A stretch of DNA of 64,000 nt from Antedon mediterranea (taxonomy: Eukaryota; Echinodermata; Crinoidea; Comatulida; Antedonidae), in NCBI RefSeq assembly GCF_964355755.1, contig NC_092678.1, positions 519,922-583,921 of the forward strand, read 5' to 3'. The translations under genes and the position numbers were made by a program. The notes under the pieces were generated by a model that was not told where the DNA came from, did no database searches, and saw only the letters and a program-made list of their open reading frames with translations. Shown in pieces: positions 31,544 through 55,475 of the stretch (the stretch's first letter is position 1; each line of letters opens with the position of its first letter).

Positions 31544-32419
31544 TTATATTTTCAAAATACGTTTGAATTCTCGTTTAAACTCTCGATTTCGCACAGAGTA
31601 AACAAGAGGGTTCATGAAAGAATTGGCGTACAACAAACCGACAAGAACCAAGTCCACAGTTGCAAAGATAATCGAATCGTTTTGATGGCGATAGTACGAA
31701 ATTGTTGAGTGTATATAGTAAACGGTTATAGGAGCAAAACATACGAAAAACATTGAAAATATTATGATGCTTGTTTTCGTAGCTCGCATTTCGTTCTTGT
31801 TTGCGCGTTCATTTTCACCAATAACACGAATTGAGAAAATGCGTCGTTCCTGGTTTTTGGCAAGTTTGTAGACGCTAAAATGTAAGGCACACAAAACAAA
31901 CAAGATGAAACAAATGTACATAGTTTGACTTAAATAAAATATTTTTCTTTCGACAAAGAAAAAAAAATATGAAGCCCATGCAGCGACGCATGTTCCGGAA
32001 CCCCAGGCAAAAACTATCAATTTATCAATACGCCTATTTGGAAGGTACTGCGCGTGACGTAACGGATACTTCACATTGACGTAACGTTCGATTGCGAGAA
32101 TCATTAAATGCTGTTCAGATATGAAAACCATCCACCACGAGCTGCCGCTAGTAATTACGTTTAAAACCGAATTCCCGTGAAACAAATTCAACGTCAAATA
32201 CCACTGAATACTGAGTATACCGCTAATAAAATCGACAACGCTGAGACTTAGTTGTATTCTCCACACTCCATTTTCATACATCCTTCGTTTGATGCAGACC
32301 CACATCACCAGTAAATTACCACAAATTATTAAAATTGACATGGACATCCAGAGTACAACAAGCGACGAATGAAATGTGTAAATTATAACAAAAGTAGTTT
32401 TATTTTGTACGTCAGTCAT
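31544..32419 (-). CDS. Rhodopsin-class GPCR 1 (intronless, 291 aa)
   Basis: Seven-transmembrane receptor of the plasma membrane; ligand unknown. N-glycosylation site NKT at 6. GN of TM1 at 34-35, D63 in LSLSVVDF of TM2, ERY at 111-113 in place of DRY, PLRHAQYLPNRRIDKL in loop 2, RATKTSIII into TM6 with CFAP, NPLVY at 270-274, and a short basic tail RNREFKREFKR. The class A cysteine at 3.25 is absent (Asn in its place), so no TM3-loop2 disulfide is expected. A 3'-half copy lies at 38829-39094. The start is ATG with no alternative nearby. The missing disulfide recalls the melanocortin/lipid/cannabinoid branch, but a ligand class is not claimed. Confidence 0.9.
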   Translation of the reverse strand: MTDVQNKTTFVIIYTFHSSLVVLWMSMSILIICGNLLVMWVCIKRRMYENGVWRIQLSLSVVDFISGILSIQWYLTLNLFHGNSVLNVITSGSSWWMVFISEQHLMILAIERYVNVKYPLRHAQYLPNRRIDKLIVFAWGSGTCVAAWASYFFFFVERKIFYLSQTMYICFILFVLCALHFSVYKLAKNQERRIFSIRVIGENERANKNEMRATKTSIIIFSMFFVCFAPITVYYIHSTISYYRHQNDSIIFATVDLVLVGLLYANSFMNPLVYSVRNREFKREFKRILKI

Positions 32420-32935
32420 TTTCGCCGTTGTTATCCTTCTTACGATGCCGCCTCAACGGTTACGCGCGCGTCAACGTAACATCTGACTAACGCAGGCGCG
32501 GCCTATATCGGTCGTCTTCTGTGCTGTGTTTTCCGAAACAGGTCTCCCACCAGGTTGTTTTCCTATATGAAATAGTTGATGCACCATTCGGAGTTTTCCT
32601 CATCACGATTATTCTGTTTTGTTCGCAACTATCTTGTCGCCTCAACGTTCAATATTGTACTGAAGAAAGATAATCGATTTCTGTCGTCAATATGTAGCAG
32701 CAATTATTAAACTTGTAATGTTTGTTCCAATAATATTAGAATTGCAATGCACACTATTCAAGTAGGGAAATATGAAGTACACGTCAATCATATTTTGTTG
32801 AAGTTGTCACTTTTTAGATCGAAATTAAGTATTGGCGTCAATCATCTCGAAAAGTTAATAAACTAATACGTTATACTACTTCAAAGCACTGTTTTATTCA
32901 ACCGTCACTTGTGATTGGTCAAATTACTAGCGCAG

Positions 32936-33237
32936 CTACATCTTGTGTTGTTGCGTGTGCATCTTGTGTTGTTGCGTGTACGTCTTGCGTTGTTGCGCGT
33001 TCGTCTTGTGTTGTTGCGCGTACGTCTTGTGTTGTTGCGTGTGAGTCTTGTGTTGTTGCGTGTGCGTCTTGTGTTGTTGCGTGTGCGTCTTGTGTTGTTG
33101 CGCGTACGTCTTGTGTTGTTGCGTGTGAGTCTTGTGTTGTTGCGTGTGCGTCTTGTGTTGTTGCGTGTGCGTCTTGTGTTGTTGCGTGTACGTCTTGCAT
33201 TGTTGCATGTGCGTCTTGTGTTGTTGCGTGCGTTGTT
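32936..33237. repeat. 21-bp minisatellite grown from a family 2 MITE
   Basis: About 14 units of gttgcgtgtgcgtcttgtgtt with variants at two positions. The array begins straight after cttgtgattggtcaaattac, the internal motif of the family 2 MITE, and the unit resembles its ttgcgttacgtccttgtgtt. 21 is a multiple of 3, so it yields artefactual open frames on both strands. Confidence 0.9.
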
Positions 33238-33514
33238 ACCAACAAACGTTAGGAAGCTTCGATTTTGAGACGCCTAGCACTTGCGATGTCGACATATATG
33301 AAGGTACTATATTCACAACGTTGTGTTTTGGTCGATTCCAGGTCACTGTGACTTTTCATGGATTATGTTATCACAGAAAACGGTATATAACTACGAATTT
33401 TAACCGGGTTATTGTGCAGTTCTCCGACGATCATCGCGCGAATCGAAATTTATTCAGAGATGGACGACGACATCAAAAGAATATTAGGTCGTCGCAAATG
33501 AATGCTTTAAAATT

Positions 33515-33752
33515 GTAGAGGGAATTTCGTGGAGGGGAGGGGGAGAACACGAGGGGAGAGGAGAGAACACGAGGGTGGGTACACGCAGTTATTATTATTT
33601 ATTTTAGAGGGCATTTCGAGGAGGGGAGGAAGAGGGGAGAACACGAGGGTGGGTACACGCAGTTATTATTATTTATTGTAGAGGGCATTTCGAGGAGGGG
33701 AGGGGGAGGGGAGAACACGAGGGTGGGTACACGCAGTTATTATTATTTATTT
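33515..33752. repeat. Purine-rich 3-copy repeat (about 73 bp) at the GPCR 2 stop
   Basis: Three units with gagggcatttcgaggagggg, gagaacacgagggtgggtac and acgcagttattattattta. The last unit runs into the stop codon of receptor 2 at 33747, so the array is its immediate 3' flank or UTR. Confidence 0.88.
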
Positions 33753-34601
33753 TTTAAAAACCACTTTCAACTGTCTTTTAAATTCTCGGTTTCTAATAGA
33801 ATAAACAAACGCATTCATTGCTGAATTAGCGAACACGAAAATGTCAAGAATTAGTTCCAAGATGGAAGGATTATGGAGACGTGCGTCACTTCTTATTACT
33901 ATACTTAAATTGTAGATGGTAATAGGTAGATAACAAACAAGAAACATTGTGAAAATGATAATGCTTGTTTTTGTCGCTCGGATCTCTTTTTTCTTGTTCG
34001 ACCGATGGTCCACGGAACATGCGAGTGACGAAATCTTGAGTTGTTGCTTTCTTGCGGCCGTATATACATTATAATGTAGTACGAACAAGATCACTAATAT
34101 TGTAACGTTAACAATTAAGCTACACACATAAAATGTGTGTACATCTATATAATAATACACGCTTGACATGAACATTCCAATACACATTCCCCATAACCAC
34201 GCAAACAAAATGAGTTTATCTATGCGTTCGTTCGGTAGGAGATGCGCATGACGTAATGCATACGTCACGGCTACGTAGCGCTCTATAGCCAGAACCATTA
34301 AATGTTGTTGAGATACGTAAATCATGGTGTAGGCGCTTCCAGTCATAACCAACCTTACAAATATAGAGGTACTTTTAATGTTAAACCCTAGCAACCATTG
34401 AATACCAAAAATGCCCGTTATTAAGTCTACAACGCTCAGACTTAGTTGTATACGCCATATACCATTCCTATATAATCTTGATTTCGTAGAAACGTAGATG
34501 ACAAGAAGGTTTCCAACAATTACGATGAACGATAACAAAAACCAACATGTAGAAAACAACGTGTGATCTGTCACGAGGTCCACAGACGTTATGTTGTACA
34601 T
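33747..34601 (-). CDS. Rhodopsin-class GPCR 2 (intronless, 284 aa, NAFVY)
   Basis: Same family as receptor 1 and near twin of receptor 3. N-terminal site NIT at 3. GN at 30-31, D59, ERY at 107-109, TYALRHAHLLPNERIDKL in loop 2, IRATKTSIII into TM6. The TM7 motif reads NSAMNAFVYSIRNREF: the conserved proline 7.50 is alanine. TM3 has no cysteine at 3.25 (Arg there). Otherwise intact from ATG to stop with no frameshift. The P7.50 loss could alter activation or G-protein coupling, and because it is shared with receptor 3 it is not a sequencing error. Confidence 0.9.
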   Translation of the reverse strand: MYNITSVDLVTDHTLFSTCWFLLSFIVIVGNLLVIYVSTKSRLYRNGIWRIQLSLSVVDLITGIFGIQWLLGFNIKSTSIFVRLVMTGSAYTMIYVSQQHLMVLAIERYVAVTYALRHAHLLPNERIDKLILFAWLWGMCIGMFMSSVYYYIDVHTFYVCSLIVNVTILVILFVLHYNVYTAARKQQLKISSLACSVDHRSNKKKEIRATKTSIIIFTMFLVCYLPITIYNLSIVIRSDARLHNPSILELILDIFVFANSAMNAFVYSIRNREFKRQLKVVFKK

Positions 34602-35035
34602 TTTAAACCAACAGATTAGAAGAGAGTGTTAAACTGCCAACGGACGAACAGACAAATTAATACTGTATCAGAAGAGATACATTAAACGGTTGTGTACGTG
34701 ATGGTGAGCACTGTGGATAGAGTTGGCGCGCAAATGTGTTCTACAATAGCTCCCTCAGCATATTGTTATCAGATGGTTGATGACCCTATCTTATCACCGT
34801 TCAATTTTCTGCTGAGGAAAAGAAATCGATTTTTGCCAATCTGTAGTAGACTGCAGTCATTACTAAAATTGTCCCTTGAAGTAAGGAAATATGAAGTAGG
34901 TCTACACGTCAATCATATTTTGTTGAAGTTGTAATTTATTAAATCGAACTTAAGTATTGCCGTCAATCATCTAAAAAATAATGTTTTGCTCAAGTTAAAC
35001 TAATTCATAAATTAACAGTGTGAATTAACATTCGC

Positions 35036-35090
35036 TTGTGATTGGTTAGATTCCTAGCGTTGCGTACGTGTACAGGGCGTCTTTGCGCGC
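35036..35090. mobile_element. MITE family 2 remnant
   Basis: cgcttgtgattggttagatt then tagcgttgcgtacgtg is the interior of family 2. It lies in the duplicated upstream segment shared with receptor 1 (about 32880-32940). Confidence 0.55.
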
Positions 35091-35384
35091 ACGCGTCGGG
35101 ATCGACCGGGACTCCCAATTTTGCGACGACCTACATAATACGCCGTCGTCATATTGCGGTACTATTCGCATACATACGTTGAGTTTGGTTTGTCAATTGT
35201 CAATTTGTTCATCAATTCCAAGTGATGGCTGGATGATGTTATTACCGTGACATTACCGCATGGACTACGTATTACCGTGACATTACCGTATGGACTACGT
35301 ATTTAACCGCTTTTGTTGTGTAGACCACCGTAATCACATATCGAAAATCGATCGACAACGACTCTAACATTTATTTATTATTAT

Positions 35385-36245
35385 CTATTTTTTTAAAAAC
35401 AATTTCAACTGTCTTTTAAATTCTCGGTTTCTAATAGAATAAACGAACGCATTCATTGCTGAATTAGCAAACATGAACATATTAAGAATTAGTTCCAAGA
35501 TGGAAGGATTCCGGCGACGTGCGTCACCCCTTATTACTATACTTATTACTAAATCGTAGATGGTAATAGGTAGATAACAAACAAAAAACATTGTGAAAAT
35601 GATAATGATTGTGTTAGTCGCTCGGATCTCTTTCTTTTTGTTCAACCGATCGTTCACGGAACATGCGAGTGACGAAATCTTGAGTTGTTGCTTTCTTGCG
35701 GCCGTATATACATTATAATGTAGTACGAACAAAATCACTAATATTGTAACGTTATAAATTGAGTTACAAACATAATATGTGTGTACATCTATATAATAAT
35801 ACACGCTTGTTATGAACATTCCAATACACATTCCTGATAACCACGCAAACAAAATGAGTTTATCTATGCGTTCGTTCGGTAAGAGATGCGCATGACGTAA
35901 TGCATACGTCACGGCTACGTAGCGCTCTATAGCCAGAACCATTAAATGTTGTTGAGATACGTAAATCATGGTGTAGGCGCTTCCAGTCATAACCGACCTT
36001 AAAAATATAGAGGTACTTTTAATGTTAAACCCTAGCAACCATTGAATACTCCAAATGCCAGTTATTAAGTCTACAACGCTCAGACTTAGTTGTATACGCC
36101 ATATACCATTCCTATATAATCTTGATTTCGTAGAAACGTAGATGACAAGAAGGTTTCCAACAATTACAATGAACGATAACAAAAACCAACATGTAGAAAA
36201 CAACGTGTGATCTGTCACGAGGTCCACAGGCGTTATGTTGTACAT
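35385..36245 (-). CDS. Rhodopsin-class GPCR 3 (intronless, 286 aa, NAFVY)
   Basis: Recent duplicate of receptor 2. The first 60 residues differ at only about one position (MYNITPVD versus MYNITSVD). Differences concentrate in loop 2 and TM5 (HTYYVCNSIYNV) and before TM7, with two extra residues (DLVISIVIRG). ERY is at 107-109 and TM7 reads MFANSAMNAFVYSIRNREF, again lacking the NPxxY proline. Intact reading frame. Ligand and coupling unknown. Confidence 0.9.
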   Translation of the reverse strand: MYNITPVDLVTDHTLFSTCWFLLSFIVIVGNLLVIYVSTKSRLYRNGIWRIQLSLSVVDLITGIWSIQWLLGFNIKSTSIFLRSVMTGSAYTMIYVSQQHLMVLAIERYVAVTYALRHAHLLPNERIDKLILFAWLSGMCIGMFITSVYYYIDVHTYYVCNSIYNVTILVILFVLHYNVYTAARKQQLKISSLACSVNDRLNKKKEIRATNTIIIIFTMFFVCYLPITIYDLVISIVIRGDARRRNPSILELILNMFMFANSAMNAFVYSIRNREFKRQLKLFLKK

Positions 36246-36507
36246 TTTAAAACAAAATGACTACAATCAGAAAACACAACTCAAATGTCACACGAGCGTG
36301 TCATAGTTCACGTGCCCGTGCGCGCACGCAAATTAGCAGCGCCAACTTAACGTATTCCCTAATCTCCTACTAACAAAACTGTTCGAACTTGATAAGATAA
36401 GCTGCTTACAATAGAAAATGTCAAACCCAACCGTGATCTTGATATCCACAAATCAATGCACTCAACGTTTTGATTACGTAAACAACACGTGAACAATTTT
36501 AACCAAT

Positions 36508-36580
36508 CATGACTGGCACACTGAAAACTGTTGTGCGCACGTCATTGTGTTGCGTCCTAGTGGGAGGAGTCAAGCTTAAT
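36508..36580. mobile_element. MITE family 2, partial
   Basis: ttgtgttgcgtcctagtggg then aggagtcaagctta is the right terminus. It ends 8 bp from the receptor 4 stop codon. Confidence 0.6.
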
Positions 36581-36587
36581 ATTCTGC

Positions 36588-37457
36588 TTAGTGTTTAAAT
36601 AATTGTTTCAAATGACTGTTAAATTCGCGATTACAAATGGAATAAACGAAAGGATTCGACATAGAATTGGAATATTCTAGACAGATAAGAACCGACTCTA
36701 AGAAGGACAGATGTAACGAATAGTTTGGCATTGACTCAGACGAAAATATGGATACGTAAATATGGTATATAATCAATGGTAAATATGCCAACAAAAACAT
36801 TAAGACTATGGTAATGGTAGTTTTCGTTGCCCGAATTTCTTTTCGGCGGTGTGTCCTTTCGGTGGTAATAATATTGTTTGAAAATATTTTATTTTGCTGT
36901 GTTCTAGCGATCTTATACACCGTAAAATGCAGCGTACTTAAAATGATCAACACTAACAAGTTATAAAAACCATGGCACATAAAAAACATGCTCTGATGAA
37001 TATAGTAGTAACTGGTAGCCGCAATTGTACCGATACACGCTCCTGATATCCAGGCGAAAAGTATCAGTTTATCGATTCGTTCAATCGGTAGTAAGGTCGC
37101 ATGACGTAACGGGTATGAAACTGCTATGTACCGTTCAACACCAAGAATAAGTAGATGTTGTTCGGAGATCAAAGCCAACCACCACACGCTACCTTCAACG
37201 AATGACAACACGGATACGTTGATATCTCTGCAACAATTATAAATTAACGGGATGTTAAAGGCAATTAAACCAGTCAACAAGTCAACAATGCTAAGGCTAA
37301 AATGTATTCGCCAACTCCCTCTTTTATACATTTTATGTTTTAGAGTAATAAAAATCACCATACTATTTCCGAAAACGACTAAAAATGAAGCAATTGTCCA
37401 ATAAGTGATAAACAATGGTTTGGTTAAAATACTTGTAGATGTTTCGTTGGAAACCAT
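36588..37457 (-). CDS. Rhodopsin-class GPCR 4 (intronless, 289 aa)
   Basis: Family member with NET glycosylation site at 4. GN at 30-31, D59 in FSLSIVDL, SEQHLLILGVERY into TM3 end (ERY 108-110), SYPLRHATLLPIERIDKL, EIRATKTTITI into TM6 with LAYLP, and NSMSNPFVYSICNREF in TM7. No cysteine at 3.25. More diverged than the 2/3 pair. A family 2 MITE end lies immediately downstream of the stop. Confidence 0.9.
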   Translation of the reverse strand: MVSNETSTSILTKPLFITYWTIASFLVVFGNSMVIFITLKHKMYKRGSWRIHFSLSIVDLLTGLIAFNIPLIYNCCRDINVSVLSFVEGSVWWLALISEQHLLILGVERYIAVSYPLRHATLLPIERIDKLILFAWISGACIGTIAATSYYYIHQSMFFMCHGFYNLLVLIILSTLHFTVYKIARTQQNKIFSNNIITTERTHRRKEIRATKTTITIVLMFLLAYLPLIIYHIYVSIFSSESMPNYSLHLSFLESVLICLEYSNSMSNPFVYSICNREFNSHLKQLFKH

Positions 37458-38173
37458 TGTAACAAGTTGAATGTTGAGCTGTTCTTAACTCTCAATCACT
37501 ATCAACAGGCACACCAATATCTACTATATCAGAACTCAGAAAAGTTCGATTCATTTCTTCATTTTCTGCTTAAGTATGTATGCTTAAGTGGTATATTGTG
37601 TTACTAACAAGATGACGAACTCAGTTATATTCTTATATCAGTCTGCCAATCACAATTAGCTAATATCAATATGGGTCTAGGATTGACATAAGTAATTTTA
37701 GTATAAGATGTAAAAATGAAAAATCAAGTAAATTTCAAAGTTAAACACAAATCTGAAGTTGCAATAACATGACGACATCTGTCAATCAAAAGCAATGGTA
37801 ATTAGCAATCTTTAATAATGTTGTACATCAGTCAAAATCAATCAATATCATTATTTAAATAACTACTTCACTAAACTTTCTCTGTTTAATATGAGGTATT
37901 TCAATAGAGTTATTATAATAGAGAGTGACAATGACAGCTCTACACCACTAAATCAACTATTTTACAAGACACAAATCTGACGCGCGCGCGCATGCTTAAC
38001 GCGAACGTCAAGATGATACCGTAATTAAAAATATCCAACAGTTCTTCTATAGAATGCGTTTTCACGTCACGATCTGTTAAGATTGTTAAAATACAAAATA
38101 TGATGTAATAATATTATCAATTCGTGTCACCGTTAATATACATTTACATTTATTTTTTCGCTCTTGGCGTTCC

Positions 38174-38354
38174 TTAAGCTTGGTTCCCACTAGAACGTAA
38201 CGCAAGGACGTAAACGCAACGCAAGCGTTTTAACCAATGACAAGCGAAGTTATAGACAGTTAGCAATCACAAGCGAATAAGCCATCGCTTGTGATTGGTC
38301 AATTCACTTGCGTTGCGTTACGTCCTTGTGTTGCGTCGCTAGTGGGAACCAAGC
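38174..38354. mobile_element. MITE family 2, full copy A
   Basis: TIRs ttaagcttggttcccactag and ctagtgggaaccaagc. Interior with inverted gcgttttaaccaatgacaag and cgcttgtgattggtcaattc. About 180 bp, non-coding. Confidence 0.88.
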
Positions 38355-38391
38355 ATTTCGCGTACGCTACGTAATCATCAAGTAAGCTTGG

Positions 38392-38583
38392 TTCCCACTA
38401 GAACGTAACGCGAGGACGTAAACGCAACGCAAGCGTTTTAACCAATGACAAGCGAAGTTATAGACAGTTAGCAATCACAAGCGAATAAGCCATCGCTTGT
38501 GATTGGTCAATTCACTTGCGTTGCGTTACGTCCTTGCGTTGCGTTACGTCCTTGTGTTGCGTCGTTAGTGGGAACCACGCTTT
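38392..38583. mobile_element. MITE family 2, full copy B (left border of captured GPCR piece)
   Basis: Nearly identical to copy A, with one extra cgttgcgttacgtccttg unit. Its right end abuts atgacgcattctatgacgtc, which is the downstream flank of receptor 1 duplicated here. Confidence 0.88.
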
Positions 38584-39094
38584 ATGACGCATTCTATGAC
38601 GTCATTTGTACATTGCAATAGGCCAAGTATGTTACTATATTCTTACATTGCTAACAAAAATATATTTACACTAATTATGTATATTACTAGTACATAACAT
38701 GACAGTACGTAAAGATAAAAATCTTTGGTATTATGAAAAAAAGTTTCCTGCGTCTCAACCGTTGATGGCGCTATATCGTTACATCGTAATCTGACAATTA
38801 AATATCTATTTAGTTTGTTCCTTTGCTTTTATATTTTCAAAATACGTTTGAATTCTCGTTTAAACTCTCGATTTCGCACCGAGTAAACAAGAGGGTTCAT
38901 GAAAGAATTGGCGTACAACAAACCGACAAGAATCAAGTCCACAGTTGCAAAGATAATCGAATCGTTTTGATGGCGATAGTACGAAATTGTTGAGTGTATA
39001 TAGTAAACGGTTATAGGAGCAAAACATACGAAAAACATTGAAAATATTATGATGCTTGTTTTCGTAGCTCGCATTTCGTTCTTGTTTGCGCGTT
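38584..39094 (-). pseudogene. Captured 3' half of GPCR 1 between MITE copies
   Basis: 511 bp matches 31302-31812 at about 95% by eye: about 245 bp of 3' flank plus the coding region for TM6, TM7 and tail. The frame from 39074 to 38829 reads MRATKTSIIIFSMFFVCFAP... to NPLVYSVRNREFKREFKR and differs from receptor 1 by about one residue. TM1-TM5 are missing; homology stops abruptly at a family 2 MITE sequence at 39095. It cannot make a functional receptor; it could be transcribed as a fragment. Confidence 0.88.
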
Positions 39095-39178
39095 CGAATA
39101 AGCCATCGCTTGTGATTGGTCAATTCACTTGCGTTGCGTTACGTCCTTGCGTTGCGTCGCTAGTGGGAACAACACTTT
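39095..39178. mobile_element. MITE family 2, right half (right border of captured piece)
   Basis: gaataagccatcgcttgtga then ttcacttgcgttgcgttacg and ctagtgggaacaacactt match the right half of copies A and B. It begins exactly where GPCR homology ends. Confidence 0.82.
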
Positions 39179-39218
39179 AACGTCAGACTTGCGTAACCCA
39201 GCTGCGCAAGTGCAGAAG

Positions 39219-40142
39219 TCAGATTCCGCCAGTTACTAAGGAAGATACCGAATCATCGATTTTTTTCCTTAAAAAGCTTGGTTTAAACATCTTCTTCAAA
39301 TGTTGATTAAACTTTCGATTTCTGATGGAATAAACTAACGGATTCATGGCGGAGTTAGCGTAGTGTAGACACATAATAAACGATTCCAACATGCTAGCCT
39401 GACGAGTGTATCTCGCTTCAATGGTTGTTGACGTGCACAGGTAAAACTGGTAAATGATTAATGGTACAAAACATACCAAAAACATCGAAAATATGATGAC
39501 TGTAGTTTTTGTAGCCTGCGCATCATCCTTTTTATTAGCATCATTCACCGGGGATATTTTCCGTTGCTGTGCCTTAGCAGTTTTGTAAACTATATAGTGT
39601 AGTAAGCTTAACACCACTATGACCAAAGCATCGTAACTGGTTTGGATTAAGTACGACAGGTTTGCGTCTAAGTGGTAGTAGACATACACAGAGACTGTTT
39701 TGACGGCCAGTCCGAATCCCCAACCAAAAAACAGTATGATTTTATCGACGCGCGCGTTCGGCATGTATTGCGCGTGGTGTAACGGATACGTAACGGCAAT
39801 GTAACGTTCAAACGCAATAATTAACAAATGCTGTAGAGATAACAACGTCAGGATACATGTACCACCTTCAAGAATGGAAATCGCTAATCTGGTCTTTTCA
39901 AAGAATATAAAAACGACTGAGCACATCAAACCAACAAAACCAGAAAGTAAATCAACAATACTAAGACTAATCTGGATCCGCCATGTTCCATTCTCGAACA
40001 TTCTCTTCTTGACGGCAACGTAAACCACGAGAGAATTTCCAGAGATGATGACCAGCGACAAACAAACCCAAAATGTGAAAAGCAATGGATGGTTTAAACG
40101 ACGAGCCATATGAACACTCGCTGTTTCGTTGCTGTATTCCAT
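39219..40142 (-). CDS. Rhodopsin-class GPCR 6 (intronless, 307 aa)
   Basis: NET site at 5. GN at 35-36, D64 in ISLSIVDL, SLQHLLIIAFERY (ERY 112-114), TYPLHHAQYMPNARVDKI, DAQATKTTVIIF into TM6 with CFVP, NSAMNPLVYSIRNRKF in TM7. The tail is longer than in its neighbours, with a lysine-rich stretch and SVSSLVTGGI at the end. No Cys 3.25; a cysteine sits at about 3.33 instead. Loop 2 HHAQYMPNARVDK is shared with receptors 7 and 8, linking the two subgroups. Confidence 0.9.
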   Translation of the reverse strand: MEYSNETASVHMARRLNHPLLFTFWVCLSLVIISGNSLVVYVAVKKRMFENGTWRIQISLSIVDLLSGFVGLMCSVVFIFFEKTRLAISILEGGTCILTLLSLQHLLIIAFERYIAVTYPLHHAQYMPNARVDKIILFFGWGFGLAVKTVSVYVYYHLDANLSYLIQTSYDALVIVVLSLLHYIVYKTAKAQQRKISPVNDANKKDDAQATKTTVIIFSMFLVCFVPLIIYQFYLCTSTTIEARYTRQASMLESFIMCLHYANSAMNPLVYSIRNRKFNQHLKKMFKPSFLRKKIDDSVSSLVTGGI

Positions 40143-40603
40143 TTCAAATAAATTGAGTACGGTACTTAAGTCGTTAGTGTACCACTAGCTCACGTTCTCT
40201 GCACGCAGAATTAAATGAACGAAAACTGAAACATGACGATCAATATATATAATATTAATATGCTATAGTGACTTTAGCTATACAAAGTTGATGTAACAAA
40301 TTAGTTAGGTCTATGTATTTAAGAAAAGTCAAAGGCTCCAATCAAATTCGTTAAAAACAAGTCCAACTAGAGAAACGTCAACTGCCACAAATCAGTCAAT
40401 CAGATATCAGTTCCACTCTTTGCTCCAACCACGCACACCAACGCGCACACGCACACCACCGCGCGCCATCCGATATACGACCGCTTAATCTTAAAATAGG
40501 TCTATATCAAATAATATTCATTTATTCGCAATCTCGAATTAGTTAATTAGGAATACAATTTGAATAAATGTTGTTCTCACATGCCACCAATAGTTAGCTT
40601 GTT

Positions 40604-41479
40604 TCATATTCTACAGATATCTTTCAACTGTCGGCGAAACTCTCGATTCCTCATACAATAAATAAACGGGTTAATAGCCGAATTAGCGTATAAGCAGAAA
40701 TTTAAAACATAACCAAATGTTTGAAAGGATTCATTTTGCATAGGCCTATTAAGCGCCGTCAATATAATAGATAATGAGTTGAATAGGATTGTTGGCAGCA
40801 AACATACTATAAACACAGCGCATATTATAACACTGGTTTTTGTTGCTCGTGTTTCATTTTTAGGTCTAATAACTTTTCTGTTTATTATTGGAACATTAAC
40901 TGTTATTTTCGTTTGCTGTGTTTTGGCCACTTTGAACACCTTGTAGTGCAACACGCACATAACAGTTACCATAGCAATGATGTACAAAAATTGTAAAGTG
41001 TATAAAATAAATTGGTCAACGTAAAATACGATGGTTAAACACGTACCAATAAATAACGCCGTCACCCAAGAAACAACTAACAGTTTATCAACGCGCGCGT
41101 TCGGCATGTACTGCGCGTGGTGTAACGGATACGTAACGGCGATATAACGTTCGGAAGCAAGTAGCAGCAATTGATGTAGAGACATAAAAGTCATTAACCA
41201 GACAACACATCCAGTTACTGTCATTGGTAACGAGTTAAAAGGACAAAATATTGCAACGATTGACCAATTTAGACCAATTACACCTGTTAAAATATCGACG
41301 AAGCTTAGGCTTAGTTGTATTCGCCAGGTAGGGTGTTCAAACAGCTTCTTTCGCGTACAAACATACACAACGAGTACATTCCCTAGGATGATGACAATCG
41401 ACAAACAAATATAAAATGCCAAGTATGTTTTAGGTGTACATAACACATCATTTGTTGTTTGGTTGTTTACTTTCTCCAT
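40604..41479 (-). CDS. Rhodopsin-class GPCR 7 (intronless, 291 aa)
   Basis: Starts MEKVNNQTTNDVLC with an NQT site. GN at 33-34, D62, SLHQLLLLASERYIAVTYPL (ERY 110-112), loop 3 with KTQQTKITVNVPIINRKV, ETRATKTSVIIC into TM6 with CLLP, NSAINPFIYCMRNREF in TM7. No Cys 3.25 (Met there; Cys at 3.30). Near twin of receptor 8. The 3' and 5' flanks are also duplicated. Confidence 0.9.
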   Translation of the reverse strand: MEKVNNQTTNDVLCTPKTYLAFYICLSIVIILGNVLVVYVCTRKKLFEHPTWRIQLSLSFVDILTGVIGLNWSIVAIFCPFNSLPMTVTGCVVWLMTFMSLHQLLLLASERYIAVTYPLHHAQYMPNARVDKLLVVSWVTALFIGTCLTIVFYVDQFILYTLQFLYIIAMVTVMCVLHYKVFKVAKTQQTKITVNVPIINRKVIRPKNETRATKTSVIICAVFIVCLLPTILFNSLSIILTALNRPMQNESFQTFGYVLNFCLYANSAINPFIYCMRNREFRRQLKDICRI

Positions 41480-41949
41480 AAGTAGTTTGCAGAAACAATT
41501 TTGTAATCAATAAACAATAATACCGTTGAATGTTAGTCTAGAATGGCGCTTTAAAAGTAATCGCACACAGCAGTTTCACAATGTCCGTTTGTAAGACTAT
41601 AACTCATAATACACATTCAAACACATCAAGTATATTTATCAGAGATGCCACGCAATATTACGGTAGTCATCGATATTGTTTTGTTTTGCTCTTCAAAATA
41701 TTCAACGAAATTAAATCCTGTTTGTCAAATTGACATGTGACAACGGGAATGTGTTTTCTATTTTGGCAAGTCGACGATTATGAACATGTATCGTTACAGC
41801 TGACTGTGTTTATGCTCAATAGAACATAGTATCTCTAGGCCTAGTTGTTGTTTTTTCCAATATTAAGCGTTCGTATCGTTCGTTTATGTCCAAAATAAAT
41901 TAAATAAAATTTGGATTTTTTTCATCTGGTTTTTTTTTGTTTTTTTAGA

Positions 41950-42105
41950 TTTTAATATTTTTCTTTAAATGTTTTCGAAATCGACTATTTCACACGTCAC
42001 CGACCATAAGCAGCCAAACACACCTGAACTTAAGTCAGTTGTGGCTAGGCTTAACTGAATTCGTTTGGTCATTTTGGTGTATAATTTCTTCCTATAAACA
42101 AACGC
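41950..42105 (-). pseudogene. Relic of a second copy of GPCR 9
   Basis: About 150 bp matches 44280-44420, covering TM2 and the adjoining loop of receptor 9 on the minus strand (plus-strand landmarks gttttcgaaatcgactattt and cttaactgaattcgtttggt). The rest of the gene is gone. It sits upstream of receptor 7 exactly where receptor 9 sits upstream of receptor 8, so it is a deleted partner from the segmental duplication. Confidence 0.8.
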
Positions 42106-42303
42106 TAACATCCCACCTTTTGCTCAACCACGCACACGCACACTACGGCGCGCACACGCCACCCGATATACGACCGCTTAATCTTAAATAGGTCTTAATA
42201 AGAAATAATATTCATTTATTCGTAATCTCGAATTAGTTAATGTACAGTAGGCATACAATCTGAATAAATGTTGTTCTCACATGCCACCAATAGTTAGCTT
42301 GTT

Positions 42304-43185
42304 TCACATTCTACAGATATCTTTCAACTGTCGGCGAAACTCTCGATTCCTCATACAATAAATAACCGGGTTAATAGCCGAATTAGCGTATAAGCAGAAA
42401 TTTAAAACATAACCAAAAGAGTTACTGGTTTCATTTTGCATAGGCCTATTAAGCGCCGTCAATATAATAGATAATGCGTTGAATAGGATTGTTGGCAGAA
42501 AACATATGATAAATACGGAGCAGATTATGACACTGGTTTTTGTTGCTCGTGTTTCATTTTTAGGTCTAATAACTTTTCTGTTTATTATTGGAACATTAAC
42601 TGTTATTTTCGTTTGCTGTGTTTTGGCCACTTTGAACACCTTGTAGTGCAACACGCACATTATAGTCACCATGGCAATGCTGTGCACAAATTGTAAAATG
42701 TATAAAATAAAATATTGGTGAACAACATAAAATACGATGGTAAAACATGTACAAATAAATAACGCTGTCACCCAAGCAACAACTAACAGCTTATCAACGC
42801 GCGGGTTCGGCATGTACTGCGCGTGGTGTAACGGATACGTAACGGCGATGTAACGTTCGGACGCAAGTAGCAGCAAATGATGTATAGACACAAAAGTCAT
42901 TAACCAGACAACACATCCAACTATTGTAATTGATAACGAATTAAAAGAACAAAATATTGCAACGATTGACCAATTTAGACCAATTACACCCGTTAAAATA
43001 TCAACGAAGCTTAAGCTTAGTTGTATTCGCCAGGTAGGGTGTTCAAACAGCTTCTTTCGCGTACAAACATACACAACGAGTACATTCCCTAGGATGATGA
43101 CAATCGACAAACCAATATAAAATGCCAAGTATGTTTTAGGTGTACATAACACATCATTTGTTGTTTGGTTGTTTACTTCCTCCAT
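42304..43185 (-). CDS. Rhodopsin-class GPCR 8 (intronless, 293 aa)
   Basis: The start is chosen at ATG 43185 (MEEVNNQTTNDVLC), aligned with receptor 7; the frame is open a little further upstream but without an ATG. ERY 110-112, HHAQYMPNPRVDKLL, KTQQTKITVNV in loop 3, CFLP in TM6, NSAINPVIYCMRNREF in TM7. Differences from receptor 7 cluster around TM4 to TM5 (CFTIVFYVVHQYFILYILQF), the expected ligand-facing region. No Cys 3.25. Confidence 0.9.
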   Translation of the reverse strand: MEEVNNQTTNDVLCTPKTYLAFYIGLSIVIILGNVLVVYVCTRKKLFEHPTWRIQLSLSFVDILTGVIGLNWSIVAIFCSFNSLSITIVGCVVWLMTFVSIHHLLLLASERYIAVTYPLHHAQYMPNPRVDKLLVVAWVTALFICTCFTIVFYVVHQYFILYILQFVHSIAMVTIMCVLHYKVFKVAKTQQTKITVNVPIINRKVIRPKNETRATKTSVIICSVFIICFLPTILFNALSIILTALNRPMQNETSNSFGYVLNFCLYANSAINPVIYCMRNREFRRQLKDICRM

Positions 43186-43706
43186 AGTTTGTAGAAACCG
43201 TTTTGTGTGCAATACACGTTCACTTAGTCTTTCTTGTTCTTTGTGAAGAATTACGCTTTAAAAGATCCTTAAGCAGTCACAGCAATTTCAAAATGTACGT
43301 TTATATGACTATAACTACATCACGTATGCTATCACATAACTCATCAAGTATATTTACACCAGAGATGCCACGCAATATTACGATAGTCATCGATATTGTT
43401 TTGCTCTTTAAAATACTGAACGAAATTAAATCCTGTTCGTCAATTTGACATGTGTGTTTTAAAACGCGAATGTGTTTTTTTTTGCAAGTCGACGATTATG
43501 AACATCACAGATAGAAGAACGCGATGTTTATAGCGCCCTCTTGAAATATTAAAAGTTTTTGAATTAACTAACTTATCGTTACAGCTGACTGGGTTTATGT
43601 TTCTCCATGATAGAACATGGTACCTCTAGTTGCTATATATAGCGTCCGTTCGGTTATTTCGTTTATGTTCAAACTAAATAAATTAAAAAAATTTTTTTCA
43701 TCTAGT

Positions 43707-44528
43707 TTAAGACAACAAAAACTGAATAAATTCTTTGTTTCTAAAGGAATAAACAATTGGGTTCATACCGGCGTTGGAATATGACCAAATAAGGAATATC
43801 TCTTGCGCGTCAGTTAATGCTTCTTCACTTTGCATATTGTCAGTAACATTGATATACAATGACGTTATCAAAAGCGGTAAGGATGATATTGCAAACGCAC
43901 CAAACATTATTAATGTTGTCTTTGTTGCTTTGTAGTCTTTTAAGCGTTTGGATTTTATCACGTGACTCTCAACGAATGCAATTTTCAGTTGTTGATTTCT
44001 CGCTTTTAAGTATATAATTAAATTGAAAAGAATGTGTAGCACCACAAGAGCAATTTGTAATGTTGATGAAATCATCATATACTGTGAGCGGCCGATGACA
44101 GGCGACAGGTAAATGTCCATTACTACAATAGCTAACGCTAAGATGACCGTCCACGCAAGACCAACGTCCACGACGCGACTGGACATAAGTCGGTGGTGTT
44201 TAAATGGGTGCACGACAGCTACATAACGCTCTGTCGTCAACAAGCCTAACTGAAATTGTGATGTTAACATCAAACACACTAATATTTTTCTTAAAATGTT
44301 TTCGAAATCGACTATATCACACGTCACAGACCATAAGCAGCCAAACACACCTGAACTTAAGTCAGTTGTGGCTAGGCTTAACTGAATTCGTTTGGTCATT
44401 TTGGTGTACAACTTCTTCTTAACAGAAACGATAACGACACATGCATTTCCGATGATTACCCAAAATGAGATGACGACCCAGATTGTCGTACTCGGAACAG
44501 AAGGACACCCTGTGCTAGTTTCATTCAT
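43707..44528 (-). CDS. Rhodopsin-class GPCR 9 (intronless, 273 aa)
   Basis: The start is chosen at ATG 44528 (MNETSTGCPS, NET site); the upstream extension lacks an ATG. Belongs to a second subgroup with receptors 10 and 11: TKRIQLSLATTDLSSG, SQFQLGLLTTERYVAVVHPF (ERY 100-102), KDYKATKTTLIMF, NAGMNPIVYSFRNKEF. Very short tail ending FIQFLLS. Glu replaces Cys 3.25. The start codon is in register with an 83-bp tandem array upstream. Confidence 0.88.
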   Translation of the reverse strand: MNETSTGCPSVPSTTIWVVISFWVIIGNACVVIVSVKKKLYTKMTKRIQLSLATTDLSSGVFGCLWSVTCDIVDFENILRKILVCLMLTSQFQLGLLTTERYVAVVHPFKHHRLMSSRVVDVGLAWTVILALAIVVMDIYLSPVIGRSQYMMISSTLQIALVVLHILFNLIIYLKARNQQLKIAFVESHVIKSKRLKDYKATKTTLIMFGAFAISSLPLLITSLYINVTDNMQSEEALTDAQEIFLIWSYSNAGMNPIVYSFRNKEFIQFLLS

Positions 44529-44885
44529 TATCTTTTCGTCGTTAAATAACAATCGGAGATAGACCAATGTAAACGGAACTTAACTGTGTTGGTATCCCAG
44601 TTTAATTCATGAACTTCTCGTCCATTAAATAACAATCGGAGATAGACCAATGTAAACGGAACTTAACTGTGTTGGTATCCCAGTTTAATTCATGAACTTC
44701 TCGTCCATTAAATAACAATCGGAGATAGACCAATGTAAACGGAACTTAACTGTGTTGGTATCCCAGTTTAAATTCATGAACTTCTCATCCATTAAATAAC
44801 AATCGGAGAAAGACCAATTTGAACGCAACTTAACTGTGTTGGTATCCCAGTTTCATTCATCCTCTTCTCGTCCGTTAAATGACAA
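44528..44885. repeat. 83-bp tandem array made of the GPCR 9 start region
   Basis: Four further units follow the receptor start. Minus-strand ATG AAT occurs at 44528 (the gene), 44610, 44693, 44777 and 44860, spaced 82-84 bp. In two copies it is followed at once by TAA. The outermost copy keeps ATGAATGAAACT as in the gene. If transcribed, these would be upstream start codons. Confidence 0.88.
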
Positions 44886-45677
44886 TCAGAAATACACCAT
44901 CGTGAACGAAACTTTCAAAACTAAGTTTTGGTGGTCATGTAAGTAAATACTTTATTATGTGATTCCTATTGTCTATACATAGACCATACGACAGTTGTAC
45001 AAAAATGCCAATATTAGCGTTTTCGGCAGTAGGCCTACACAGATGCATTTAGCAATAATTACAGAAAAAAATAATTAGTTGTAGGCCTATTACAAAATCG
45101 AATTAGATTATCTCATCAAACAAGCGAACAAAAAAAGTCCATGTTACAAGAAAAAAAAATCTAGTCACTGAAGCAAACATATGATTGACATATAATATAA
45201 TATGAATTGACTTGTTAATAATGGATGAACCCAAATCTGATTGGTCTTTTTCCGTCCATCACACACTTAAGATAACAACCGGTCAAGTTTCCAATCAAAT
45301 TCAAATTAAATCACAATTATAATTGCCATCTATACATTGTGGCATATCGCCTCAACAACCATGGAGTTATTATACCTACATACTCTAACCAACAACTAAC
45401 TACCTGACAAAGAACACTACCATTGGGATACCTCTATACAGGGGACATCATATTCATGGACCAAGCCCATCCCCTCCCCCCTCCCCCGCCCCAATTAGGA
45501 GGAACGGACATCAATGCGGATGTTTTAACATTACAGACAACCTCTGAAGGATGGACCACTCTTACTCAGCGGTGGTCAGTTTCTTTGGTCAGTTTCTTTG
45601 GTCTTGAACTTTATGTGCTATACTATACTACTGTAGAACACTAAACAACACAGCATTTGTCCAAAACACATCTTTAC

Positions 45678-45820
45678 TAAAGCTCTGTCTACATTATCAA
45701 ACTAGTGTGATGTGCCCAAATATGGTAGTGACTTGCCCAAATATGGTATTGAATTGACATCATCATGTCCATATATGGGCACATCACATTTTGTTATCAC
45801 ATAAAGTTTAGATAAGGCTT
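45678..45820. mobile_element. MITE family 1
   Basis: Left taaagctctgtctacattat, right acataaagtttagataagg (diverged). Interior with two tgcccaaatatggta units. It lies just downstream of receptor 10. Confidence 0.8.
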
Positions 45821-45853
45821 AAAGATGTAGAAAATCAATGGAGGAGACATTTT

Positions 45854-46729
45854 CTACCATTTTCTTGTCAAACTACGCAAATATTGAATAAATTCTTGAT
45901 TTCTAAACGAATAAACAATAGGGTTCATTCCACAATTTGAATACATAATAGTGAAGAGGATCATAAATACGTTACCAGCCATAATATTGTTAACACCATA
46001 AAGGACACCCAATACACCTTGATACAGTGAATACAGCATCAAGGGATATGTGCATACAGCATGCGCACACGATATAATTAGAATTGATTTAGTTGCTTTG
46101 AAGTCTCTTACGCGCTTGCACTTTCTCACTTGATTTTCAATGGCATCAATTTTCATCTTTTGATTTCTGGCATTTACATAAATAATGTAATTTAAAACAC
46201 AAAGCAGCAGAAAAGCTAAAACTTGTATAGAATTCATTACAAACATTGCGGTTGAAAACCCAACAAAATATACAAATATAAAAACAAACATCACGAAAGC
46301 TAGAGACAAAAAAACGGAACAGACAAGTCCGATATTGATGGCGCGAGATGTGATCAGTGCCTGATATCGAAAGGGGTACACAACAACTATATATCGTTCG
46401 ATCGTTAATAAAATTAATTGCAGTTGGGATATACTAACCATGATGTAAATTAAATTTAGCATTAATAATACTAAAATTGAATTTCTACCAAATATAAGTA
46501 CAAAGATACCACGCAACAGACCAGTCACTCCTGAACTTAAATCAACGATGCTTAAACTTAGTTGAACGCGTTTCGATAAGTCCGTGTACATTCTCTTCTT
46601 GACATAAACAAAGACAACCAACATATTCCCAAGTATTATCCACCAAGATAAAGCTATCCATATACATAGCTCTACGTAGTTATAGTTATGATCGTAATCA
46701 GTTATGTTTTTAACATCTGTCTTGTTCAT
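45854..46729 (-). CDS. Rhodopsin-class GPCR 10 (intronless, 291 aa)
   Basis: The start is chosen at ATG 46729 (MNKTDVKNITDYDHNY), with two glycosylation sites; upstream codons are open but have no ATG. Second subgroup: SKRVQLSLSIVDLSSG, SQLQLILLTIERYIVVVYPF, VRDFKATKSILII, NCGMNPIVYSFRNQEF. No Cys 3.25. TM6 reads CAHAVCTYP. Flanked upstream by the 62-bp array. Confidence 0.88.
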   Translation of the reverse strand: MNKTDVKNITDYDHNYNYVELCIWIALSWWIILGNMLVVFVYVKKRMYTDLSKRVQLSLSIVDLSSGVTGLLRGIFVLIFGRNSILVLLMLNLIYIMVSISQLQLILLTIERYIVVVYPFRYQALITSRAINIGLVCSVFLSLAFVMFVFIFVYFVGFSTAMFVMNSIQVLAFLLLCVLNYIIYVNARNQKMKIDAIENQVRKCKRVRDFKATKSILIISCAHAVCTYPLMLYSLYQGVLGVLYGVNNIMAGNVFMILFTIMYSNCGMNPIVYSFRNQEFIQYLRSLTRKW

Positions 46730-46739
46730 AGTGATATGA

Positions 46740-47580
46740 TAAGTCTGATACCAACTGTACAAAGGTAAATGATTAAGTGTGACTTAAGTCCAAAGTCCCT
46801 TGATAAGTCTGACACACTGTTAAGTGTGACTTAAGTCCAAGGTCCCTTGATAAGTCTGACACACTGTACAGAGGTAAATGATTAAGTGTGACTTAAGTCC
46901 AAAGTCCCTTGATAAGTCTGACACACTGTACAAAGGTAAATGATTAAGTGTGACTTAAGTCCAAAGTTCCTTGAAAAGTCTGACACCAACTGTACAAAGG
47001 TAAATAATTAAGTGTGACTTAAGTTCAAAGTTCCTTGATAAGTCTGACACACTGTACAAAGGTAAATGATTAAGTGTGACTTAAGTTCAAAGTCCCTTGA
47101 TAAGTCTGACACCAACTGTACAAAGGTAAATGATTAAGTGTGACTTAAGTCCTAAGTTCCTTGATAAGTCTGACACACTGTACAAAGGTAAATGATTAAG
47201 TGTGACTTAAGTTCAAAGTTCCTTGATAAGTCTGACACACTGTACAAAGGTAAATGATTAAGTGTGACTTAAGTCCAAAGTTCCTTGATAAGTCTGACAC
47301 ACTGTACAAAGGTAAATGATTAAGTGTGACTTAAGTCCAAAGTCCCTTGATAAGTCTGACACACTGTTAAGTGTGACTTAAGTTCAAAGTCCTTTGATAA
47401 GTCTGACACACTGTACAAAGGTAAATGATTAAGTGTGACTTAAGTCCAAAGTTCCTTGATAAGTCTGACACACTGTACAAAGGTAAATGATTAAGTGTGA
47501 CTTAAGTTCAAATTTCCTTGATAAGTCTGACACCAACTGTACAAAGGTAAATGATTAAGTGTGACTTAAGATCATAAGTC
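46740..47580. repeat. 62-bp minisatellite (about 13 units) upstream of GPCR 10
   Basis: Units tgataagtctgacacactgt, acaaaggtaaatgattaagt, gtgacttaagtccaaagt. Some units lack the acaaaggtaaatgatt block, giving 38-46-bp short forms at 46815-46860 and 47365-47400. It begins about 11 bp from the receptor start codon, so it lies in the 5' UTR or promoter. Confidence 0.93.
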
Positions 47581-48318
47581 CCTTTTATAAATCACTTATC
47601 ACTAGAGCATATTGATTTCACATCACCAACATTTCTACTTCCTCTTCGTTTCTTGTGAGCGCTGTCCAAGATAATAATGTTAAAATGTTCTAAATATAAC
47701 ATTACCACATTACAATGGAATTCTGATTTGATACTGTTAGCTAATGTTAGCTATATTTATAAATTAAAGTTACTTGATGGAGTGTTGATAGCTGTTAGTC
47801 TAGACTGGTAACAGTTATTCAGTTCTTATATTGTTGTTGTCGATTCAGAGAGAATGTTGTTGCTTTGTTGCCAGTCAATAACATTCATTAAGATTGTCTG
47901 TTAATTAGTACGACCCTTCCGTACATGATCTTGGTGTATGCCCGCTAAGAATTTCCAGATACATCAGTTTTCTTTGTCATCATCCTCGTGCAGTTAGTTG
48001 ACAAATTTAAATGAATTCTGTCATTTTTGAAGTGGAAAACAATACAAGACCTATCAGTTAAAATCGATCACTTCATCCATTATTAAAGTTTATTAAAGAA
48101 TCTTTAAATCTAATACAGTTATTTGATGAGCTGTCAATCAAATGTTAACGAACTTGAAGTGAAATGACACAATGGTTTTATATAATATAAATCAAATTGA
48201 CAGACACTAACATGTTAGTGTCACTTAATACAATGAAATACATCAAAACATTTAACAAGATACAAATTAATACCATAAATAATCAAACAGAATCTGTTTC
48301 CTCCAAAAAAGAAACAAA
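47581..48318. other. Intergenic, nothing recognised
   Basis: AT-rich sequence between the 62-bp and 44-bp arrays. No gene, repeat family or receptor relic was seen. Confidence 0.5.
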
Positions 48319-49775
48319 CTCAAGCACACATCCTCCTTGTTCTCTCCTGAATGTAATCCTATCTCAAGCACACCTCCTCCTTGTTCTCTCCTGAATGTAA
48401 TACTATCTCAAGCACACATCCTCCTTGTTCTCTCCTGAATGTAATCCTATCTCAAGCACACCTCCTCCTTGTTCTCTCCTGAATGTAATCCTATCTCAAG
48501 CACACATCCTCCTTGTTCTCTCCTGAATGTAATCCTATCTCAAGCACACCTCCTTCTTGTTCTCTCCTGAATGTAATCCTATCTCAAGCACACATCCTCC
48601 TTGTTCTCTCCTGAATGTAATCCTATCTCAAGCACACATCCTCCTTGTTCTCTCCTGAATGTAATCCTATCTCAAGCACACATCCTCCTTGTTCTCTCCT
48701 GAATGTAATCCTATCTCAAGCACACATCCTCCTTGTTCTCTCCTGAATGTAATCCTATCTCAAGCACACCTCCTTCTTGTTCTCTCCTGAATGTAATCCT
48801 ATCTCAAGCACACATCCTCCTTGTTCTCTCCTGAATGTAATCCTATCTCAAGCACACCTCCTCCTTGTTCTCTCCTGAATGTAATCCTATCTCAAGCACA
48901 CATCCTCCTTGTTCTCTCCTGAATGTAATCCTATCTCAAGCACACATCCTCCTTGTTCTCTCCTGAATGTAATCCTATCTCAAGCACACATCCTCCTTGT
49001 TCTCTCCTGAATGTAATCCTATCTCAAGCACACCTCCTCCTTGTTCTCTCCTGAATGTAATCCTATCTCAAGCACACCTCCTCCTTGTTCTCTCCTGAAT
49101 GTAATCCTATCTCAAGCACACCTCCTCCTTGTTCTCTCCTGAATGTAATCCTATCTCAAGCACACATCCTCCTTGTTCTCTCCTGAATGTAATCCTATCT
49201 CAAGCACACATCCTCCTTGTTCTCTCCTGAATGTAATCCTATCTCAAGCACACATCCTCCTTGTTCTCTCCTGAATGTAATCCTATCTCAAGCACACATC
49301 CTCCTTGTTCTCTCCTGAATGTAATCCTATCTCAAGCACACATCCTCCTTGTTCTCTCCTGAATGTAATCCTATCTCAAGCACACATCCTCCTTGTTCTC
49401 TCCTGAATGTAATCCTATCTCAAGCACACCTCCTTCTTGTTCTCTCCTGAATGTAATCCTATCTCAAGCACACATCCTCCTTGTTCTCTCCTGAATGTAA
49501 TCCTATCTCAAGCACACATCCTCCTTGTTCTCTCCTGAATGTAATCCTATCTCAAGCACACATCCTCCTTGTTCTCTCCTGAATGTAATCCTATCTCAAG
49601 CACACATCCTCCTTGTTCTCTCCTGAATGTAATCCTATCTCAAGCACACCTCCTTCTTGTTCTCTCCTGAATGTAATCCTATCTCAAGCACACATCCTCC
49701 TTGTTCTCTCCTGAATGTAATCCTATCTCAAGCACACCTCCTTCTTGTTCTCTCCTGAATGTAATCCTATCTCAA
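48319..49775. repeat. 44-bp minisatellite, 33 units, downstream of GPCR 11
   Basis: Unit caagcacacatcctccttgt, tctctcctgaatgtaatcct, atct. Three variants differ at two positions: A (cacatcctcc), B (cacctcctcc), C (cacctccttc). Order read: ABABACAAAACABAAABBBAAAAAACAAAACAC. The array ends 100 bp before the receptor 11 stop. Adjacent units have no unique spacers, so it is not a CRISPR. Confidence 0.95.
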
Positions 49776-49875
49776 TGACTAACTTTATCGTTTTGTGCAT
49801 TTATTTATACTACATGGTGACTTCATTTTCACATTGTGATTGCGTTGTCGCTGACCGTCTTTGAGTAACTGTTGA

Positions 49876-50913
49876 CTACATAGACCTAAAGATGGATCGC
49901 AAACCAGTCTTAAAAGACTTACTTCTAAAAGAGTAGATTAGCGGATTCATTCCGCAATTGAGTTGCAAGAAGAAAACAGAAATCATAACGTTTGAAATTG
50001 AAAATGAATATTGACAATAAAAAATGGCGTTCTTGATTGAAATCACGAAATAGGGAATGGTACAGATCAAGAAAGCGGCGAGAATGATGAGTGTGGTTTT
50101 GGTTGCTTTTAAATCGGCTTTCTTTTGTACGCAGCCAACCTTTCTTTGCTGTTGTGTGCCTTCCTCCTTGTGCAGACGCACATCTATCACGTGTACACGC
50201 ACGTCTGCTGCGTGTATACGTATTTCTTGCTTTCTCGCTTCCTTGTGAACTCTAAAATGCAGACCGCAGATAAGGATGATGGGAAAAAATTCTCCAATAC
50301 TGTGCGACACAATGTACACCATTTTGTCTCTACTGTAAAAAGTTTGTTGGAGTATGAGACCGATTACGACACCAGTCATCCAACAGAGTACGATAGCGAT
50401 GTTTGTTGATTTGGACGTTACAATGTTAATATGTCGGAATGGATAGAATATAGCAATGTATCGCTCCACAGCAATAGCAAATAGATGACACTGAGAAATA
50501 TAGAACGGCCACCATAAATATATCACAAATATCTCTTGCAGATCATCGTGAATTGCACAGATGATTCCTAAAACACCGGACATGAAATCGACGACACTTA
50601 GACTTAACTGGATGCGTTGCGTCATCTGCTCGTACATCCTGGTCTTTACCGACACGTAGATAACTAAAGTGTTACCAAGAAGGATCAACAGACAGACAGA
50701 CACCCAAGCGATATGGTAGTATACATCGCCACGAATCAACTCCATGCTGCTCTTGTAATTATACCCAGAATAGTAATCTTGCCAGCCACTGCCACCATCA
50801 CTTGTGTTATTTGCATATGTTTCATTGGGAAAACTTGCATTTGCAGTAATCCAGTTTTCAGTAGTAATGTACGGAGGTCTTGTATAAGATGGTCTAATAT
50901 AGGATGGCCTCAT
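49876..50913 (-). CDS. Rhodopsin-class GPCR 11 (intronless, 345 aa)
   Basis: The start is chosen at ATG 50913 (MRPSYIRPSYTRPPY); the frame is open upstream but without an ATG. The extracellular N-terminus is long (about 60 aa) with NAS, NET and NNTS sites. Then GNTLV, TQRIQLSLSVVDFMSG, SQCHLFAIAVERYIAIFYPF, RHINIVTSKSTNIAIV, a lengthened loop 3 with repeated IHAADVRVHVIDVRLH-type units, DLKATKTTLII, and NCGMNPLIYSFRSKSF. No Cys 3.25. Largest of the array and probably the most distant relative. Confidence 0.88.
   Translation of the reverse strand: MRPSYIRPSYTRPPYITTENWITANASFPNETYANNTSDGGSGWQDYYSGYNYKSSMELIRGDVYYHIAWVSVCLLILLGNTLVIYVSVKTRMYEQMTQRIQLSLSVVDFMSGVLGIICAIHDDLQEIFVIYLWWPFYISQCHLFAIAVERYIAIFYPFRHINIVTSKSTNIAIVLCWMTGVVIGLILQQTFYSRDKMVYIVSHSIGEFFPIILICGLHFRVHKEARKQEIRIHAADVRVHVIDVRLHKEEGTQQQRKVGCVQKKADLKATKTTLIILAAFLICTIPYFVISIKNAIFYCQYSFSISNVMISVFFLQLNCGMNPLIYSFRSKSFKTGLRSIFRSM

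Positions 50914-51872: not shown

Positions 51873-55475
<3,603 letters not shown>

Follow-up and report, generated by a model that had tools for sequence, protein, structure and literature searches.

The odorant receptor-like (OR-like) receptors of echinoderms are organised as single-exon tandem arrays (PMC7042368, PMC5442662). Together with the sea urchin surreal-GPCRs (G-protein-coupled receptors) they are rhodopsin-class proteins, mostly encoded by single exons, arranged in tandem, expanded within lineages and of low identity between paralogues. The starfish OR-like cluster comprises 12 genes with four cysteines present at about 80%, among them those of transmembrane helix 3 (TM3) and of an extracellular loop (PMC5442662). 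The TM3 cysteine, Cys3.25, is found in about 88% of class A receptors, the human exceptions listed being MC4R, S1P1, GPR82, GPR139, GPR142 and GPR146 (PMC7460885), and its disulfide with the second extracellular loop (ECL2) is typical of class A GPCRs without being defining. The locus described here lies in a window of 64,000 nucleotides from the crinoid Antedon mediterranea (contig NC_092678.1, here chromosome C9, positions 519922-583921 of a 354 Mb genome) and consists of a tandem array of ten intact GPCR genes, none of which encodes Cys3.25. The family to which they belong shares the receptor class, the single-exon tandem organisation, the lineage expansion and the low paralogue identity of the OR-like and surreal-GPCRs and lacks the cysteine pair of the starfish cluster, the latter being compared by description. 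It is best read as a probable variant of a known receptor-array type, akin in kind to the OR-like and surreal-GPCRs, and as no new kind of molecule.

The ten genes are ATG-to-stop frames of 273-345 amino acids (aa), each in one exon on the minus strand between window positions 31544 and 50913 (Table 1), and are named by their first coordinate. All ten proteins contain seven complete helices and score 55-86 bits against Pfam 7tm_1 (E 1e-15 to 1e-24), above its cut-off. Identity to the first gene is 23-46%, and two pairs are recent (33747/35385 and 40604/42304). Two fragments closely matching stretches of genes 31544 and 43707 lie among the intact genes, giving a birth-and-death pattern; the original prediction mentions neither these nor the relatives described next.

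Relatives were sought by single-protein genome searches with genes 42304 and 49876; the gene counts are lower bounds and only the best candidates were scored. All of the closest relatives lie on C9. The intact family members found are 28: the ten of the window, 17 in a second array about 20 Mb away (C9:20368649-20439019, loci L015-L064 in part) on the opposite strand, and a singleton at C9:1.30 Mb. The second array also contains several truncated or stop-broken copies. More distant receptor clusters were identified at C9:3.10 Mb, at C3:4.81-4.89 Mb and on C8, C7 and C2; most of the C9, C8, C7 and C2 clusters outside the main arrays are known from coordinates alone.

The original prediction, ten intact intronless receptors on one strand without Cys3.25, agrees with the count in ten of ten. 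Position 3.25 was read by ungapped counting, 25 residues before Arg3.50, and not from an alignment column, because the 3.25 column of the mixed alignment is shifted in the Cys-bearing groups (Gln or Asp stands there). Cys is present at this position in none of the ten window genes and is absent throughout 3.23-3.27 in all 28 family members, so that an alignment slip of one or two residues is not the explanation. The same counting recovers Cys3.25 in 19 of 19 members of the array on C3 and in six of six amine/adenosine-type receptors of the genome, which validates the method. The C3 array (C3:4813504-4893800, L066-L077) is likewise a tandem array of similar size, with about 25 single-exon class A receptors, and can serve the family as a natural control. 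Unlike the family, its members read have Cys3.25, a matching ECL2 Cys (FFCY in most) and Tyr5.58 (18 of 19), and they form their own clade (97/99).

The other half of the bond is missing as well. ECL2 is 11-13 residues long in the family versus 23-25 in one sampled receptor each of the amine, adenosine and C3-array types, and its Cys is present in 3 members and absent in 25. A substitute disulfide, considered in the original prediction, did not emerge: the alignment of the 28 members contains no conserved extracellular Cys column or pair that could take its place, and the only columns with Cys at 50% or more are in TM5 and at C6.47. The motifs said to be shared by the ten receptors are indeed present, but they are ordinary class A switch residues and do not stand in for the disulfide: S-x-x-[HQ]-L before ERY is S3.39 and L3.43, RIQLSLS..D runs into D2.50, [RQK]ATK[TS] is 6.32-6.36 in TM6 (ATK[TS] being 6.33-6.36) and NP[LIVF][VI]Y is the standard NPxxY. 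The family thus has the 7tm_1 match, D2.50, E/DRY, NPxxY and the seven-helix fold of class A, and lacks the usual TM3-ECL2 disulfide. A receptor array with Cys3.25 missing in every member is unusual; no published one was found, in a partial coverage of the literature with other echinoderm genomes outside the search.

The disulfide is not the only loss. Trp6.48 is present in 0 of the 28 members, Pro5.50 is kept in one, and residue 5.58 is Asn in 20 and His in 8, in place of Tyr. It is these three characters and the missing disulfide that are truly odd in the family. Retained are the sodium site (D2.50/S3.39/N7.45/N7.49), P6.50, NPxxY, E3.49-R3.50 with D/E6.30 (27 of 28) and C6.47 (26 of 28); an N-terminal N-x-S/T sequon is found in all 28. 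The adenosine A2A/A2B and amine receptors share the sodium site and the ionic lock with the family and, unlike it, have the TM3-ECL2 disulfide, Pro5.50, Tyr5.58 and Trp6.48. A2A is the best sequence match of the family profile, A2B followed by A2A are those of protein 42304, and beta-adrenergic, histamine H2, TAAR1 and somatostatin receptors are further matches in one or other list. The adenosine-receptor orthologue of this genome (L078, C3:38371200-38372800; A2A best match, E 2e-74) has Cys3.25 and is separate from the family.

The tree of 59 proteins (full tree) and a second one leaving out five long-branch rows (reduced tree) both recover the 28 members as one clade (95/89 and 100/99 respectively), in agreement with the predicted distinct, lineage-expanded clade uniformly devoid of Cys3.25. 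Neither outcome named beforehand as refuting it occurred: position 3.25 never carries Cys, and none of the described families compared shows one-to-one orthology with the receptors. In the full tree, seven window genes form a clade (100/100), 43707 and 45854 group with the second array (100/98) and 49876 branches deep. The deepest diversity is therefore in the window array, which indicates that the array at 20.4 Mb derives from the window array or from a shared ancestor. Of the reference rows, human MC4R, CNR1, S1PR1 and LPAR1 agree letter for letter with PDB chains, and A2A was checked by eye only, against the aligned part of its database match.

A kinship with the melanocortin, lipid and cannabinoid receptors, towards which the original prediction pointed, would make the family an offshoot, in invertebrates, of the melanocortin/cannabinoid/lysophospholipid group, with lipid or peptide ligands and with the missing disulfide, missing Pro5.50 and short ECL2 inherited from a common ancestor of both. 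The same losses are known from MC4R, S1P1 and CB receptors (PMC7460885). The Cys3.25-ECL2 bond is absent from MC4R, S1P1, LPA1, CB1, GPR20, GPR139, GPR142 and GPR146; Pro5.50 is absent from MC4R, S1P1, CB and LPA1 receptors, as in nearly all family members; and a very short ECL2 occurs in MC4R and in the disulfide-free GPR20. Absence of Cys3.25 and Pro5.50 is common to the family and this group but is also found in unrelated receptors, and is not diagnostic. The four human disulfide-free receptors included in the trees keep Trp6.48 and Tyr5.58, of which the family has neither, and MC4R has an ECL3 disulfide whereas the family has no conserved extracellular Cys pair. They also form their own clade (100/97 in the full tree, 100/96 in the reduced one), which joins the adenosine/amine receptors in the latter (99/96). 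One clade of the family with these four is rejected in the reduced tree by the approximately unbiased (AU) test (p-AU 0.010) and is not rejected in the full tree (p-AU 0.107). No melanocortin, cannabinoid or lysophospholipid receptor appears among the 60 best sequence matches, where A2A/A2B, beta-adrenergic, H2 and TAAR1 receptors lead. The structure models of 42304 and 49876 have the class A fold, with best-match Z of 27.5 and 25.0. CB2 and CB1 come first in both comparisons (27.5, 27.2, then 26.7 for 42304; 25.0, 24.6, then 24.5 for 49876), though tied with AT1R, amine, adenosine and melanocortin receptors, and with rows tied the structural ranking was discarded as evidence of kinship. Descent from this group is accordingly considered quite unlikely. 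Since the human clade is separate and the joint clade rejected in the reduced tree, the shared loss is most likely convergent: with moderate confidence, it is concluded that the family most likely lost its disulfide independently of the melanocortin/lipid/cannabinoid receptors.

Within the genome the loss may extend further. A single origin of all Cys-less rows, the human ones included, is rejected (p 0.0185), and one restricted to the Cys-less receptors of this genome is not quite rejected (p 0.067), both in the full tree. In the reduced tree the C9 family, the C9:3.10 Mb cluster and a C5 receptor stand on one side of a 97/81 branch. It is tentatively proposed, as a possibility well short of an even chance, that the two arrays on C9, the cluster at C9:3.10 Mb and scattered receptors on C5, C6, C8 and C10 form one old ambulacrarian class A branch in which the disulfide was lost once, Tyr5.58 was replaced by His or Asn, Trp6.48 was dropped and activation proceeds by a rewired set of switches. 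All members read of this putative branch lack Cys3.25 and have His or Asn at 5.58. Other receptors of the genome without Cys3.25 (L062, L065, L079, L080, L084, and L029 and L032 of the C9:3.10 Mb cluster) carry His5.58, which is possibly a shared derived mark of the wider branch.

The reading favoured here, and held to be reasonably probable, is that of a class A GPCR family expanded within its lineage, with two tandem arrays and a singleton on one chromosome, acting as probable chemosensory receptors. The TM3-ECL2 disulfide and the greater part of ECL2 would already have gone in the common ancestor. With a short, presumably glycosylated N-terminus and ECL2 nearly absent, the extracellular pocket would be left open; its walls, the outer helix halves diversified between paralogues, would receive different small and probably environmental ligands, and the half on the cytoplasmic side, where the sodium site (D2.50/S3.39/N7.45/N7.49), E3.49-R3.50 with D/E6.30, and NPxxY are conserved, would pass the signal to G proteins by conventional coupling. 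Expression would be expected in sensory tissue.

The distribution of variability fits this proposal. Shannon entropy of the outer versus the inner TM halves is 1.99 versus 1.17 bits in the window (ratio 1.7) and 1.46 versus 0.61 in the second array (ratio 2.4), with lower ratios in the comparison sets: 1.54 in the C3 array and 1.41 in the amine/adenosine set. Such a contrast fits a pocket that diversifies while the signalling half beneath it is conserved. Selection was measured as the ratio of nonsynonymous (dN) to synonymous (dS) divergence, which is 0.25-0.62 in nine recent pairs and 0.5-0.6 in the youngest. When seven pairs are pooled, there are fewer nonsynonymous changes than neutrality predicts (p 2e-12), and some other single pairs reject neutrality too. 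Several points weigh against the favoured reading: tandem expansion alone is no proof of it; ordinary receptors also show outer-half variability, if less strongly; the two recent window pairs each fail to reject neutrality (p 0.17 and 0.06); and no common upstream element emerged, no 7-mer within the 400 bases before the ten genes recurring in more of them than shuffling gives.

Decay has to be weighed against the same figures. If the copies were non-functional duplicates and the lost disulfide a mark of relaxed constraint, the several fragments and stop-broken copies that both arrays contain and the dN/dS of the youngest pairs would be explained; the 28 intact frames, however, keep nearly all the core switches at paralogue identities down to 23%, the pooled test indicates purifying selection, and a loss uniform in every member is most simply one ancestral event and not scattered decay. 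Decay is thus highly improbable. The retained signalling residues and the transmitter and adenosine receptors found as closest solved sequences would suit receptors for internal signals (peptides, amines or metabolites) that happened to become amplified, with no role in sensing the environment. Hormone and transmitter receptors are usually stable in copy number; birth-and-death with fragments, fast divergence of the outer half and many recent duplicates are unlike them, and an internal role is regarded as unlikely.

Class A receptors are often assumed to need the TM3-ECL2 disulfide in order to fold and to reach the cell surface. An amplified family under purifying selection without the disulfide, Trp6.48, Tyr5.58 and, in all but one member, Pro5.50 would amount to dozens of natural experiments on folding and switching. 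If the chemosensory reading is true, a chemosensory use of receptors lacking the disulfide arose in ambulacrarians, independently of melanocortin and lipid receptors.

Table 1. Receptor genes and fragments of the window array (window coordinates; pLDDT, predicted local distance difference test).
Feature	Position	Strand	Length (aa)	Residue 3.25	Remarks
Intronless class A GPCR	31544..32419	-	291	Asn	
Intronless class A GPCR	33747..34601	-	284	Arg	Recent duplicate of 35385 (dN 0.047, dS 0.076)
Intronless class A GPCR	35385..36245	-	286	Arg	
Intronless class A GPCR	36588..37457	-	289	Leu	
Pseudogene fragment	38829..39119	-			TM6-TM7-tail; 98.9% identity over 88 aa to end of gene 31544; best aligned 38832-39095
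Intronless class A GPCR	39219..40142	-	307	Ile	
Intronless class A GPCR	40604..41479	-	291	Met	Recent duplicate of 42304 (89% identity, dN 0.055, dS 0.104)
Pseudogene fragment	41962..42093	-	44		93% identity to TM1-TM2 region of gene 43707
Intronless class A GPCR	42304..43185	-	293	Ile	Structure model pLDDT 78.7
Intronless class A GPCR	43707..44528	-	273	Glu	With 45854 near the C9:20.4 Mb array
Intronless class A GPCR	45854..46729	-	291	Val	With 43707 near the C9:20.4 Mb array
Intronless class A GPCR	49876..50913	-	345	Gln	Long low-confidence N-terminus; deep family branch; structure model pLDDT 74.1

Repeats were identified within and beside the array. A tandem repeat of 83 bp (4.8 copies, window 44517-44914) runs across the 5' end of gene 43707, whose start-codon region and upstream DNA are therefore locally multiplied. 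Two minisatellites have units of 27 bp (31 copies, window 30013-30845) and 44 bp (33 copies, window 48319-49775), the second of these within DNA of strong GC skew (-0.23). The non-receptor coding neighbours, both on the minus strand, are a PET-domain exon (window 14688-15335) and an ankyrin-repeat stretch (window 55104-55472).

Elsewhere in the genome, the Hox genes form one ordered cluster of 12 homeoboxes (C2:7827780-8206220), running from Hox1 to Hox8 and on through 9/10, 11/13a, an inverted 11/13b and 11/13c, with names assigned by eye. A Hox cluster with Hox11/13b inverted is an ambulacrarian arrangement (crinoid or hemichordate); by it the genome is ambulacrarian, and together with the contig number it points to a probable crinoid. 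A COX1 search gave no match, the mitochondrial genome being apparently absent from the assembly. The feather star has been described with 12 Hox genes, of which 11/13b and 11/13c are inverted and set apart from the other ten, as in hemichordates, and other echinoderms show lineage-specific loss of Hox4 or Hox6 (PMC7351957). The sea star, sea cucumber and brittle star have 20-23 chromosomes (PMC11310086), against 11 large contigs in the present assembly.

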